A stretch of 64,000 nt of DNA from Ferruginibacter sp. HRS2-29 (GTDB lineage: Bacteria; Bacteroidota; Bacteroidia; Chitinophagales; Chitinophagaceae), in the NCBI RefSeq assembly GCF_024343615.1, contig NZ_RJUB01000141.1, forward strand, positions 1 through 64,000, in the 5' to 3' direction. The notes below the pieces were generated by a model. It was given only the letters and a program-made list of their open reading frames with translations. It did not search any database and was not told the DNA's origin. The number at the start of each line of letters is the position of its first letter. The first letter of the stretch is position 1. Positions 12,033-16,122 of the stretch are shown here, in pieces. A program made the position numbers and the translations under genes.

Positions 12033-12359
12033 TTAAGCAGGCCGCGGATAAATCGAAACGATCATTTTCCGCGATTCGTCTACCGGCGTGATACGGAGCC
12101 CTTCTCTTTTTGCATAACTGAAATTGTACGACCTCGGATCGAACATTTCCGGGAGATGCTCCTCATTTTCAGTAAAAATAATGTAAACCGTATCAAGATG
12201 ATTGCTGGTAATGATCTGTACATTATTGTCAAATACTTTCAGGTGGCCATCCCGTAACAGATGAATGGTTCCTGTAAAACTCACGACCCCGTATTCGTCC
12301 ATGAGATTAAAGTCTGAAATAAAATTTTGTAAAGCGGCAGTAGATTGGTCAGAATGCAT
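12033..12359 (-). CDS. Hypothetical protein, 108 aa
   Basis: A soluble protein with predicted beta strands (EYGVVSFTGTIHLLRDGHLKVFDNNVQIITSN) and no signal peptide or membrane segment. It lies 50 bp upstream of the HMA-AraC gene on the same strand and might be co-transcribed with it. No family recognised. About 190 bp of AT-rich sequence separates it from the divergent TetR gene. Confidence 0.65.
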   Translation of the reverse strand: MHSDQSTAALQNFISDFNLMDEYGVVSFTGTIHLLRDGHLKVFDNNVQIITSNHLDTVYIIFTENEEHLPEMFDPRSYNFSYAKREGLRITPVDESRKMIVSIYPRPA

Positions 12360-12523
12360 ATTTCCCCCTGGATATTAAAAAACAATGCAAAGTAATAAAC
12401 TAATTTCCTCTCCGTCATTATACAATTACGCTATTCTTTTATAGAATTTTTATATGAAAATGAAGCATTTACGTAGTGCCAGATACTTTTAACAATAGCT
12501 TGCTGAAAATAATATACCCATTC

Positions 12524-12544
12524 ATATACCAATCGGTATATTTG
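12524..12544 (+). promoter_or_regulatory. TetR operator overlapping the tetR promoter
   Basis: ATATACC-AATC-GGTATAT (12524-12541) is a perfect 7-bp dyad. Its right half-site overlaps the -7 box TATATTTG (12537-12544), 4 bp before the ATG. The same dyad with centre AACT is at 14058-14075, preceded in both cases by TTC, pointing to autoregulation by the adjacent TetR protein. Confidence 0.75.
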
Positions 12545-12548
12545 CAAA

Positions 12549-13157
12549 ATGAAATTCGTTCCACGCTCAGAAGAGACCAGGCAATTTATCATAGAAAAGA
12601 CGGCAGCCATCTTCAATAAGAAGGGTTATGCCGGTACCTCCATGTCGGATCTTACTGCGGCTACCAATCTTACCAAGGGCAGCATTTATGGTAATTTTGA
12701 AAATAAGGAATCGGTGGCCCTGGCGGTGTTTGACTACAATGCAAAAAAGAAAAATAAATTCGAAGATGAAAAACTGGCGCTTGCTCCTACTTATAAAGAA
12801 AAACTGATGGTGTATGCGCATATATTTTGCCAGAAAGATGCGTTGGAGCTGATGGAAGGTGGTTGCCCGTTGTTGAATACCGGCATTGAATCGGATGATA
12901 CCCATGAGCCACTTCGAAAAAAAGTGGGCGAAGAATTATCCGCATGGAAAAAAAAGATACAGGCTATACTTTCAGCAGGCATCAAGGCGAAAGAATTTGT
13001 ACCGACAGTTGATATGGAAAAATTCGCTTTATCGGTGATAGCACTCATAGAAGGTGGTATCTTTGTTGCCCGCGCTACAAAAAACAAAAAGAACTTCGAA
13101 GTCATCCTCAAGACAGTTGAAGATATGATCGAAAATATTTCATTGGTAAAAAATTGA
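12549..13157 (+). CDS. TetR/AcrR-family transcriptional repressor
   Basis: A 202-aa dimeric repressor. The N-terminal HTH is clear: EETRQFIIEKTAAIFNKKGYAGTSMSDLTAATNLTKGSIYGNFENKE, ending in the Y-x-x-F-x-x-K recognition-helix signature. The C-terminal ligand domain resembles the TetR_C group with GGCPLLNTGIESDD. Transcription probably starts at or near the ATG. The dyad over its promoter and the identical half-sites before the ketosynthase gene suggest it controls itself, the SDR gene 20 bp downstream, and the next operon. The inducer is unknown. Confidence 0.93.
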   Translation: MKFVPRSEETRQFIIEKTAAIFNKKGYAGTSMSDLTAATNLTKGSIYGNFENKESVALAVFDYNAKKKNKFEDEKLALAPTYKEKLMVYAHIFCQKDALELMEGGCPLLNTGIESDDTHEPLRKKVGEELSAWKKKIQAILSAGIKAKEFVPTVDMEKFALSVIALIEGGIFVARATKNKKNFEVILKTVEDMIENISLVKN

Positions 13158-13176
13158 TCCACATAAAAAACGACAG

Positions 13177-14013
13177 ATGAAAAAAGTTTGGCTCATTACA
13201 GGTTGCTCCACCGGGTTTGGAAGGGAACTCTCCACTTACCTTCTTGCACAAGGTTACCCGGTTGCGGTTGCAGCCCGCAAAACAGAAGATATAAAAGACA
13301 TCGTGGAAGGGTTTCCCGAAACGGCTTTGTCATTGAAACTCGATGTAACAAAACCTGCTGAAATCAAAACTTCCGTGCAGCAGGCGTTGGATAAATTTGG
13401 CCGAATCGATGTGTTGGTCAATAATGCCGGCATCGGTTATTTCGGCGCTGTAGAAGAAAGCGAAGATGAAGCGGTGAGAAATATGTTTGAAATAAATTTC
13501 TTCGGCCTGGCAAATATGACGAAAGAAGTTTTGCCAGCCATGCGTAAACAAAGGAGCGGGCATATTGTAAACATCGCTTCTATCGGCGGCCTGGTAAGTT
13601 TTCCGGCAGTAGGTTTTTACAATGCCACCAAATATGCAGTCGACGGTTTATCTGAAGCACTTGCGAAAGAAACCGCCCCACTTGGCATCAAAGTAACCAT
13701 TGTAGCCCCAAGCGGGTTCCGTACAGACTGGGCGGGAAGGTCGGCTAACAACAGCCCGGTCGTGATTGAGGATTACGCTGCCACAGCCGGTGCAAATAAA
13801 GACAGCATCCGTGGTTACAGCGGCAACCAGCCCGGTGATCCGAAGCTTGCCGCCATAGCGATCGTAAAAGCAGTAGAATCTGCAGAACCGCCATTGCGAC
13901 TGCTTCTGGGAGCAGCTGCGCTCAAAGGGGCACGCAACAAACTGGAATTATTGAAAAAAGATTTTGACACCTGGGAAGAAACTACCGTGGGTGCCGATTC
14001 GCCAAAAGCGTAA
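13177..14013 (+). CDS. Short-chain dehydrogenase/reductase
   Basis: A 278-aa classical SDR. It has the cofactor motif TGCSTGFGRE near the N terminus, NNAGIG after strand 4, the catalytic Ser in NIASIGG, and YNATK as the Y-x-x-x-K active site. The alternative residues after strand 2 (VAARK) suggest NADP(H). The protein resembles SDRs usually annotated as oxidoreductases acting on alcohols or ketones. It begins 20 bp after tetR and is probably its operon partner. Confidence 0.9.
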   Translation: MKKVWLITGCSTGFGRELSTYLLAQGYPVAVAARKTEDIKDIVEGFPETALSLKLDVTKPAEIKTSVQQALDKFGRIDVLVNNAGIGYFGAVEESEDEAVRNMFEINFFGLANMTKEVLPAMRKQRSGHIVNIASIGGLVSFPAVGFYNATKYAVDGLSEALAKETAPLGIKVTIVAPSGFRTDWAGRSANNSPVVIEDYAATAGANKDSIRGYSGNQPGDPKLAAIAIVKAVESAEPPLRLLLGAAALKGARNKLELLKKDFDTWEETTVGADSPKA

Positions 14014-14020
14014 TAAATTA

Positions 14021-14045
14021 TTTAATGGAACATTGTTCCATTAAA
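14021..14045. promoter_or_regulatory. Perfect 25-bp palindrome upstream of the ketosynthase operon
   Basis: Arms TTTAATGGAACA and TGTTCCATTAAA flank a single T. The position, 8 bp after the SDR stop and 13 bp before the TetR dyad, allows two readings: a second operator, or a terminator for the SDR transcript (with the loop opened to about 5 nt, followed by TTTT). Confidence 0.6.
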
Positions 14046-14057
14046 TTTTATTCATTC

Positions 14058-14075
14058 ATATACCAACTGGTATAT
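14058..14075 (+). promoter_or_regulatory. Second TetR operator copy
   Basis: ATATACC-AACT-GGTATAT is the same 7-bp dyad as at 12524-12541. It lies 25 bp before the ketosynthase ATG, so the TetR protein probably represses this unit too. Confidence 0.75.
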
Positions 14076-14100: not shown

Positions 14101-15348
14101 ATGAAAAGAGTAGTTATCACCGGACTTGGCGCCTTATCGCCATTAGGCAATAATGTGAACGATACCTGGGAATCTTTGATAAATGGTAAAAGCGGTGCTG
14201 CGCCGATCACAAAATTTGACAGCAGTAAATTCAAGACGAAATTTGCAGCCGAATTGAAGGGTTTTGACCCGCTGGAGTTTATTGATAAAAATGAAGCCAA
14301 GAGATACGATGCCTACACCCAATACGCCCTGGTGGCCGTTGCCGAAGCGGTAAAACAGGCCGGCATTGATTTTGAAACATTGAACCGCAATCGCATCGGG
14401 GTCATCTGGGGCAGTGGTAATGGAGGAATTCAAACTTTCCAGGAGCAGTTGATGGAGTTTGCCAAAGGTGATGGCACCCCGCGTTTCAGCCCGTTCTTCA
14501 TTCCTAAGATGATCGTGGATATTGCTTCCGGCGTGATCTCGATCAAATATGGCCTGCGTGGTGTGAATTTCACTACGGTATCGGCCTGTGCCACTTCCAA
14601 TACGGCGTTGATAGACGCATTCAATTATATAAAATGGGGCAAAGCCGATATGATCATCACGGGCGGATCTGAAGCCGCCATCAATGAAAGTTCCGTTGGC
14701 GGCTTCAATGCATCGCGTGCTTTGTCTACGCTGAACGACAGCCCCGCCACCGCCTCCCGCCCTTTTGATATCAGTCGCGATGGTTTTGTAATGGGTGAAG
14801 GTGCAGGCGCTATCATTCTCGAAAGCCTTGAATCGGCCCTGGGCCGCAATGCCACCATCCTCGCCGAAGTGGCCGGTGGCGGCATGGCTGCAGATGCATA
14901 TCATCTTACCGGTACGCATCCTGAGGGAGAAGGCGCTTTTCTCGGAATGAAGGAAGCCCTCGCCGATGCCGGCATTGAACCGAAAGATATCGATTACCTG
15001 AACGTACATGCCACTTCTACTTCACAGGGGGATACCAGTGAACTGAAAGCCGTGGAAAGGGTTTTCGGTATAAAACCAAACATGCAGATCAGCGCTACCA
15101 AATCCAGTACCGGCCACCTCCTTGGCGCAGCCGGTGCAATTGAAGCCATCGCCTGCATCAAGGCTATCATACATGGCATCATCCCTCCTACCATCAACAC
15201 GGTGAATGTTGAGCCGGAGTTTGCTGACAAATTTGAATTCACGCTGGGAAAGGCACAGCAAAGGGAAGTCAATTATGCGATGAGTAATACATTCGGTTTT
15301 GGCGGCCATATCGCTACCGCAATTTTCAAAAAGTTCAATCAATCATAA
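14101..15348 (+). CDS. Beta-ketoacyl-ACP synthase II-like ketosynthase (FabF-type)
   Basis: A 415-aa thiolase-fold condensing enzyme, which normally extends acyl-ACP with malonyl-ACP. The Cys-His-His triad is present: Cys163 in SACATSNT, His in NVHATSTSQGD near residue 303 and His in KSSTGHLLGAAG near 340. The length fits FabF. No acyl carrier protein or other fatty-acid gene is adjacent; instead it sits behind a TetR operator with two SDR genes nearby. This suggests an extra, inducible KS and not the housekeeping copy, but that is inference. An SDR gene follows after 9 bp. Confidence 0.93.
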   Translation: MKRVVITGLGALSPLGNNVNDTWESLINGKSGAAPITKFDSSKFKTKFAAELKGFDPLEFIDKNEAKRYDAYTQYALVAVAEAVKQAGIDFETLNRNRIGVIWGSGNGGIQTFQEQLMEFAKGDGTPRFSPFFIPKMIVDIASGVISIKYGLRGVNFTTVSACATSNTALIDAFNYIKWGKADMIITGGSEAAINESSVGGFNASRALSTLNDSPATASRPFDISRDGFVMGEGAGAIILESLESALGRNATILAEVAGGGMAADAYHLTGTHPEGEGAFLGMKEALADAGIEPKDIDYLNVHATSTSQGDTSELKAVERVFGIKPNMQISATKSSTGHLLGAAGAIEAIACIKAIIHGIIPPTINTVNVEPEFADKFEFTLGKAQQREVNYAMSNTFGFGGHIATAIFKKFNQS

Positions 15349-15357
15349 ATCACTGAA

Positions 15358-16122
15358 ATGAACACTATCAATAACACCATCCTGATCACCGGCGGAAGTG
15401 CCGGCATCGGATTTGAGATCGCCAGGTTGTTTTCACAAAAAGGCAACCATGTCATCATTACCGGAAGGGATGAACAACGCCTGGCGAAAGCAGCTGCGCA
15501 ACTTCAAAATGTGACAGCCATACAATCCGACGTAACCGATAAAGATTCTGTAGAAGCCCTTACAACAAGGATCCGGAAAGATTTTCCGGCATTGAACATC
15601 GTTATCAACAATGCAGGAAAAGCCAGTGTATATAATCTTGATACTGAGGACGTGAATGCTTACCAGAAAGCGGCTGAAGAATTTGAAACCAACTTTCTTT
15701 CTGTTTTAAGATTGAATGAAGCTTTATTGCCTTTGCTGAAAAAACAACCGGAAGCCGCCATCGTAAATGTAAGTTCTATTGTAGCTTTCGTGCCGGGCAT
15801 TTCATTGCCAACTTACGCGGCGAGCAAAGCAGCGTTGCATTCTTACACCAGGTCATTGCGGCTGACGCTGGAAAGGTCTACCGTAAAGGTTTTTGAACTG
15901 ATGCCACCATTGGTAAATACAGAATTTTCAACAGAGATCGGCGGAGCAAATGGAATTCCCCCGGCCCAGGTGGCAGAAGCCCTGTGGAATGCCTTCGAAA
16001 AAAATCAATACGAGATACGTGCAGGCAATACCGAAGACATGTATCGTTTATACCTTTCGTCACCGGAGAATGCCCTTGAAGTGATGAATGCACAGCGCAG
16101 AGAAATATTGGCTGCACGCTGA
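15358..16122 (+). CDS. Short-chain dehydrogenase/reductase (DltE-like)
   Basis: A 254-aa SDR with TGGSAGIG near the N terminus (dinucleotide binding), NNAGKAS, catalytic Ser in NVSSIVAFVP and YAASK. The text LRLTLERSTVKVFELMPPLVNTEFS matches SDRs annotated as DltE-like. It lies 9 bp after the ketosynthase gene and is surely co-transcribed. Its reaction is not known. Confidence 0.9.
   Translation: MNTINNTILITGGSAGIGFEIARLFSQKGNHVIITGRDEQRLAKAAAQLQNVTAIQSDVTDKDSVEALTTRIRKDFPALNIVINNAGKASVYNLDTEDVNAYQKAAEEFETNFLSVLRLNEALLPLLKKQPEAAIVNVSSIVAFVPGISLPTYAASKAALHSYTRSLRLTLERSTVKVFELMPPLVNTEFSTEIGGANGIPPAQVAEALWNAFEKNQYEIRAGNTEDMYRLYLSSPENALEVMNAQRREILAAR

Follow-up and report, generated by a model that had tools for sequence, protein, structure and literature searches.

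A conserved putative TetR operator and a class of FabF paralogs that often adjoin regulators in Bacteroidota

A gene for a TetR-family regulator and a gene for a FabF-like beta-ketoacyl-ACP synthase (KS) were found to be preceded by the same palindromic dyad in a 64,000-nucleotide stretch of DNA (the window; contig NZ_RJUB01000141.1, positions 1 to 64,000) from Ferruginibacter sp. HRS2-29. Judged by its conservation in relatives, this dyad is almost certainly a real operator, and the comparison provides a concrete operator, TATACC-n4-GGTATA, and a predicted regulon for a TetR group of four Bacteroidota orders. By sequence, the KS belongs to a distinct class of FabF paralogs, here labelled FabF2, that is often found beside regulators. 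The kind of system, a TetR autorepressor with local targets, is already known, whereas the operator with its distribution and the class of FabF2 paralogs appear to be new; no description of the regulon or of the FabF2 class was found among the open-access literature matches listed, a scope that leaves most subscription papers outside. Should FabF2 tolerate inhibitors, the class would bear on intrinsic resistance to inhibitors of FAS II.

Results

Gene organisation and operator dyads

The features of the locus are as follows.

12512..12518, + strand: additional half-site ATATACC, upstream of dyad 1
12524..12541, no strand: predicted operator dyad 1, ATATACCAATCGGTATAT, exact match, at the tetR promoter and conserved upstream of related tetR genes
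12537..12544, + strand: TATATTTG, candidate -7 element, fitting TAnnTTTG and overlapped by dyad 1
12549..13157, + strand: TetR-family regulator, 202 aa, TetR_N and TetR_C_13 domains, Cys106 in a GGCP motif
13177..14013, + strand: SDR1, short-chain dehydrogenase/reductase of PRK06180 type, 278 aa (391.2 bits, cut-off 298), in the tetR unit
14020..14046, + strand: hairpin with a perfect 12-bp stem, a 3-nt loop and a T-rich tail, terminator-like, between the two units
14058..14075, no strand: predicted operator dyad 2, ATATACCAACTGGTATAT, exact match, 25 bases before the KS start
14101..15348, + strand: FabF-like beta-ketoacyl-ACP synthase of the FabF2 class, 415 aa, with N107, T272 and A304 and catalytic C163, H303 and H339
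15358..16122, + strand: SDR2, short-chain dehydrogenase/reductase by Pfam, 254 aa, in the KS unit

A preliminary description made from the sequence alone had proposed four genes (TetR, SDR, KS, SDR) in two units and two identical dyads, ATATACC-n4-GGTATAT, each preceded by TTC, one lying over the tetR promoter box and the other 25 bp before the FabF-like gene, and this layout was borne out. All four genes are on the + strand with the Pfam matches claimed, and they form a tetR-SDR1 unit (19-base gap) and a KS-SDR2 unit (9-base gap). Both dyads are exact, the TTC is present at both copies as part of a longer common stretch, CATTCATATACCAA, and 25 bases separate the end of dyad 2 from the ATG at 14101. 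Dyad 1 overlaps TATATTTG, which fits what we take to be the Bacteroidota -7 promoter element (consensus TAnnTTTG); no TAnnTTTG was found over dyad 2. A sigma-70-type promoter scan, with 12 matches against 8.5 in shuffles, was left unused. The hairpin at 14020-14046 is a possible terminator between the units, terminator-like matches as a whole being no commoner than expected (6 against 5.3 in shuffles). Divergent from tetR lies an open reading frame of 108 aa (12033-12359, - strand) with no Pfam match.

The preliminary description had also proposed a genome-wide motif scan, and this confined the exact 18-mer to the tetR/KS locus, where both of its occurrences in the 5.07 Mb genome are found (0 for the reversed control). 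With up to two mismatches the dyad occurred at 38 places against 24 for the control. Five other near matches were inspected (three with one mismatch and two extra ones from a looser consensus), all five lying inside open reading frames, and the 33 two-mismatch places were assessed by count. A wide regulon in the window's own genome found no support on these grounds, namely two exact sites only, intragenic positions for the five near matches inspected and 38 places against 24. A chance origin of the dyads was ruled out by the control motifs, both in this genome and in the relatives described below.

Conservation of the dyad upstream of related tetR genes

Of the 147 genomes searched in the family of the window, 41 had a TetR match at E <= 1e-20. 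No such match was obtained at this threshold from two other genomes of its genus, each of which gave one FabF match at E <= 1e-90. The family search, with 55 matches listed, yielded 30 loci, and 35 loci of relatives were taken at length together with three regions of the window's own genome. Among 36 loci (the 35 relatives and the window), 32 had the dyad at tetR when one mismatch was allowed, often repeated before the next unit, the four without it at that tolerance being L074, L078, L079 and L082. A scan of named genomes gave a further set of 80 loci, all kept, including six (L156, L162, L163, L172, L184 and L185) for which the ORF picker returned no tetR open reading frame.

The upstream regions of the 80 named loci, 29 family loci and the window were then pooled (110 regions, with five loci present in both sets). 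Within 120 bp upstream of tetR, TATACC-n4-GGTATA with at most one mismatch was found in 95/110 regions and in 0/110 for each of five control motifs, and was absent from the remaining 15. Allowing two mismatches raised the count to 104/110, as against 0 to 2 for the five controls, and 33/110 carried the exact dyad. Among the named loci the dyad was spread over four Bacteroidota orders (Cytophagales 17/22, Chitinophagales 15/17, Sphingobacteriales 29/36 and Flavobacteriales 3/3, with 2/2 in unranked genomes), and 42 of the 80 had another dyad 520-760 bases after the tetR start (controls 0).

The consensus ATACCRWWYGGTAT was counted in 36 hand-chosen genomes, giving 73 sites in the 22 with the TetR (reversed control 16) and 11 sites in the 14 without it (reversed control 18); these counts are approximate because the consensus misses the second site of the window (centre AACT) and one of its two matches in the window's own genome is intragenic (L193). 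A broad occurrence of the dyad, unrelated to TetR genes, had been named beforehand as the finding that would speak against the proposal, and the 73 sites with and 11 without the TetR show the opposite pattern. By these counts the sites go with the presence of the TetR, and the regulon looks small and mostly local.

Partners of the TetR in related loci

At one similarity threshold, SDR2 was the commonest of the partner genes counted for the TetR across the 80 named loci (45 loci), followed by the KS (23) and a major facilitator superfamily (MFS) transporter (21), which we take to be of the DHA2 kind; most loci of this TetR thus show no KS. Neither SDR1 nor thiolase was counted in any of the 80, which makes it tentative to assign SDR1 to the wider regulon. 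A looser threshold brought out thiolase or SDR1 in a few named loci and also in family loci. Pfam searches on sampled members backed the names TetR, HxlR, MFS and thiolase.

The operator is common to the MFS transporter in relatives, with a dyad at the MFS gene in L055, L059, L061, L063, L064 and L067 as examples of its recurrence ahead of separate units. Among the KS genes of the named loci, 12 of 23 are encoded on the other strand from tetR, and eight of these (L119, L125, L128, L130, L132, L134, L162 and L168) have their own dyad 60-124 bases upstream; in L133 the dyad is at -742, and L121, L124 and L154 showed none with at most one mismatch. Altogether, no dyad was found within 1.5 kb upstream of 7/23 KS genes in the named loci. 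The variation in partners (SDR, MFS pump, KS, thiolase) suggests that the system answers stress or xenobiotics more than it serves one set biosynthetic pathway.

Four loci (L071, L073, L076 and L077) combine the same operator and a TetR about 41% identical with a different gene set behind it, which by eye comprises thioesterase-like, PEBP, DinB, SnoaL-like, amino-acid permease and GNAT genes, not all of them in each locus.

The KS belongs to a distinct class of FabF paralogs

The KS of the window scores above the cut-off of the FabF model TIGR03150 (543.6 bits against 493.75), a model that does not tell it from housekeeping FabF. The genome encodes one other FabF, 60% identical to it, which adjoins acpP and rnc. 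In canonical FabFs acpP was next door in 14/14 cases, with rnc also in the fetched flank in 13/14, and the window KS has neither. In a tree of 28 KS proteins, drawn from 15 genomes mostly chosen for TetR-KS linkage, the 14 acpP-linked FabFs grouped in a single clade that excluded the window KS, and up to 1.4 kb upstream of these 14 genes no dyad with at most one mismatch was found. The canonical proteins all carry I107, P272 and G304 (14/14), as against T272 and A304 in all 14 non-canonical ones, whose residue 107 is Asn in 12, Gln in one and Ile in one. The catalytic residues C163, H303 and H339 are conserved in the FabF2 class, and HATST replaces HGTST. A housekeeping role for the window KS was ruled out by location, tree and residues 107, 272 and 304 taken together.

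The selection was lessened by a profile search of the 147 family genomes, the profile being built from 13 KS proteins that were mostly TetR-linked. The FabF2 set so obtained comprises 58 genes in 49 genomes at a score cut of >=669 bits read from the list, a cut that may miss divergent members such as that of L110, whose KS lies beside a TetR of the window kind and keeps Ile at 107. All 58 have T272 and A304, and residue 107 is Asn in 41, Gln in 12, Asp in four and Val in one. A tree of the 58 together with the 14 canonical FabFs separated the two groups with full support (quick method). In the 80 named TetR loci, 23/23 KS genes are likewise of the FabF2 class, with HATST and Asn or Gln at the pocket site. 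Two fixed residues and a pocket change thus separate FabF2 from canonical FabF.

Residue 107 falls in the column that holds Ile in structure 4ls5 and Phe in 4ls6, and the corresponding I108F change in Bacillus subtilis FabF is described as conferring cerulenin resistance through a changed acyl pocket (PMC3996569). FabF2 is like this mutant in that the same acyl-pocket residue is altered, and differs in being a natural Asn/Gln/Asp class; the Asn at 107 of the window KS is accordingly not the known resistance change, which is to Phe. Self-resistance KS genes of thiotetronate clusters (tlmF and related genes) are comparable as extra FabB/FabF-type genes with a proposed tolerance of FabF inhibitors (PMC5518548), but they lie in the biosynthetic clusters of producers, nothing of the kind occurring among the eight local proteins scanned in the window.

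The preliminary description had read the absence of a carrier protein and a thioesterase as pointing to a dedicated pathway. As worded, that part of it found no support, as the KS passes the FabF model and the co-regulated genes vary in relatives, whereas an operator centred on the TetR and a local regulon of two units, with a condensing enzyme among its members, were supported. With its match to FabF, the KS can be expected to draw on the ACP and the fatty-acid enzymes of the host cell.

The TetR protein and its closest known systems

The regulator matches PF00440 (43.7 bits, cut-off 24) and PF16925 (77.7 bits, cut-off 27), and its predicted model (mean pLDDT 86.5) has a fold that matches TetR structures. 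The closest of these are 3eup, a TetR of Cytophaga hutchinsonii (Z 26.0, 53% identity), and 3qbm (Z 24.3), the titles of both naming no function and the 3eup entry giving no operator; NemR (4yze, Z 19.3) and CifR (Z about 18) follow lower down. No NemR model was among the NCBIfam matches.

Cys106 is invariant in 81/81 related TetR sequences (an alignment in which six translations contain a stop, set to X, with the rows kept) and falls in the same profile-alignment column as NemR Cys106. NemR, encoded in nemRA-gloA of Escherichia coli, represses its own gene through an inverted-repeat operator and has a reductase among its targets (PMC7464077, PMC13178969), much as is proposed for the window TetR, yet it shares 19% identity with the window TetR over the structural alignment and has different targets. 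Its Cys106 is described as pairing with Lys175 under hypochlorite, with Cys21 and Cys116 responding to electrophiles (PMC7464077). The window protein has Arg at 175 (Lys in 55/81), Asp at 116 as do all 81, and no Cys near residue 21, so that it lacks counterparts of NemR Cys21 and Cys116; a NemR-like Lys175 switch was rejected for it because of the Arg.

AltR of the Pantoea alt cluster, a NemR relative and TetR repressor that depends on one essential Cys, has a similar layout of operators, in which an inverted repeat covers the promoter of its own gene and more copies lie within the cluster; it differs in its operator, CAATCTAC-n6-GTAGATTG, and in its thiosulfinate-tolerance targets (PMC13178969). 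Epoxides release CifR, the TetR repressor of the Pseudomonas cif operon, which also contains a gene for an MFS transporter (PMC8244358). Its target, in contrast, is an epoxide hydrolase, and the likeness is one of fold and operon content. Cerulenin is an epoxide. It is reported to inactivate FabF covalently (PMC3996569). The alignment of Cys106 with that of NemR, the likenesses to AltR and CifR and the chemistry of cerulenin together make thiol or epoxide sensing by the window TetR plausible by analogy; a fatty acid or another non-reactive ligand would fit as well.

Discussion

Proposed mechanism and alternatives

The explanation that we consider probable, if well short of secure, is a TetR autorepressor in control of reductases and a spare FabF that a xenobiotic or an electrophile would induce. 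Starting from the dyads, the units, their conservation and the FabF2 class, all of them read from sequence, we infer binding, repression, inducer chemistry and the role of FabF2 as follows. The TetR would bind both dyads and hold the tetR-SDR1 and fabF2-SDR2 units off, covering the -7 promoter element at dyad 1 because the dyad overlaps it. A small molecule, most likely thiol-reactive or otherwise toxic, would release the TetR, and the two reductases and the second FabF would then be made. The acyl pocket of this FabF2, which differs from that of housekeeping FabF at the cerulenin-resistance site of the B. subtilis enzyme, would allow fatty-acid elongation to be kept, or altered, while the compound is present.

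A different use of the same enzymes, which we regard as unlikely, is lipid remodelling, in which the TetR would sense a fatty acid, an acyl-CoA or a membrane-active compound and FabF2 and the SDRs would make fatty acids of other length or type, unconnected with any tolerance of inhibitors. FabF2 has kept its catalytic residues while its acyl pocket and nearby loops have changed, thiolases stand under the same operator in L061, L064 and L067, and the TetR is weakly similar to the FadR type (NF053878, 39.9 bits, cut-off 200), all of which would suit such a role; the varying partners, with an MFS transporter among them, the absence of other fatty-acid enzymes from the eight local proteins scanned and an invariant Cys106 that resembles a thiol sensor argue against it. 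Plain detoxification of carbonyls, with the SDRs doing the work and the KS riding along, would account for the higher frequency of SDR2 (45/80 named loci against 23/80 for the KS) but seems improbable, as several KS genes have a dyad of their own, on the opposite strand or elsewhere in the genome, and every KS in the named loci (23/23) is a FabF2. A signalling circuit as in ScbR systems, with KS and SDR making a butanolide-like signal sensed by the TetR, is very improbable. In its favour, the ScbR-type model NF041196 is the best NCBIfam match of the TetR (72.7 bits), and AvaR1 and CprB occur among the PDB matches; against it, that score is less than half of the cut-off of 150, and no AfsA-type signal-synthase domain was present among the eight local proteins scanned.

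Regulators adjoining FabF2 genes

FabF2 genes were found next to the TetR of the window kind and to several other regulators, 38 of the 58 adjoining a one-component regulator or carrying the dyad (a raw adjacency count). For 45 of the 58, 4 kb was fetched on each side, less at contig ends, so that a more distant TetR counts as absent. Fourteen FabF2 genes lie beside a TetR of the window kind, including relatives down to 34% identity. Two more (L235 and L236) have a dyad at -90 and a TetR match elsewhere in the genome, none being present within the 4 kb taken on either side, and are possibly regulated in trans. A different TetR, TetR-B, directly precedes FabF2 in 13 cases (L230, L231, L234, L237, L239, L240, L245, L248, L254, L258, L260, L261 and L263), the genes often overlapping or nearly touching. 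An HxlR gene is next to FabF2 in five (L196, L250, L251, L253 and L255), on the opposite strand in four of them, and all five HxlR proteins have a Cys near the N terminus. Such an N-terminal Cys is common across the HxlR family. In B. subtilis, the HxlR-type regulators YodB, CatR and HypR are described as sensing quinones, diamide and hypochlorite via N-terminal Cys residues (PMC6943732). FabF2 is followed by an AraC gene in three cases and preceded by a third TetR in one, and 20/58 have none of these regulators next door; in one of the latter, L252, a gene that by eye is thioesterase-like precedes FabF2, and ahead of it stand two dyads, 524 and 660 bases upstream of FabF2.

On the FabF2 tree, the TetR label was hardly more clustered than shuffled labels (33/500 shuffles as low), as would be expected, though this is no proof, if the pairing of TetR and FabF2 had been made or lost several times. 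A single origin of the link was rejected, the quick tree requiring 11 label changes and its starred branches forcing at least four, with gain and loss indistinguishable.

A broader proposal, possible though on the doubtful side, is that many Bacteroidota keep FabF2 as an inducible bypass of an inhibited target in fatty-acid synthesis, and that it has come more than once under the control of repressors responding to toxic compounds, which may be thiol-reactive. When the active-site cysteine of the housekeeping FabF is attacked, whether by general electrophiles or by epoxides like cerulenin, a tolerant replacement would be switched on, often with a pump and reductases, in bacteria that do not produce the inhibitor; the repressors would be the Cys106 TetR, another TetR, HxlR and AraC. 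Evidence that electrophiles hit FabF was also sought in a study of allicin (PMC6943732), whose main text does not name the enzyme.

A conserved FabF2 group (L242, L246 and L257) was further observed with an AraC-type regulator and genes that by eye are SnoaL-like or flavin-reductase-like.
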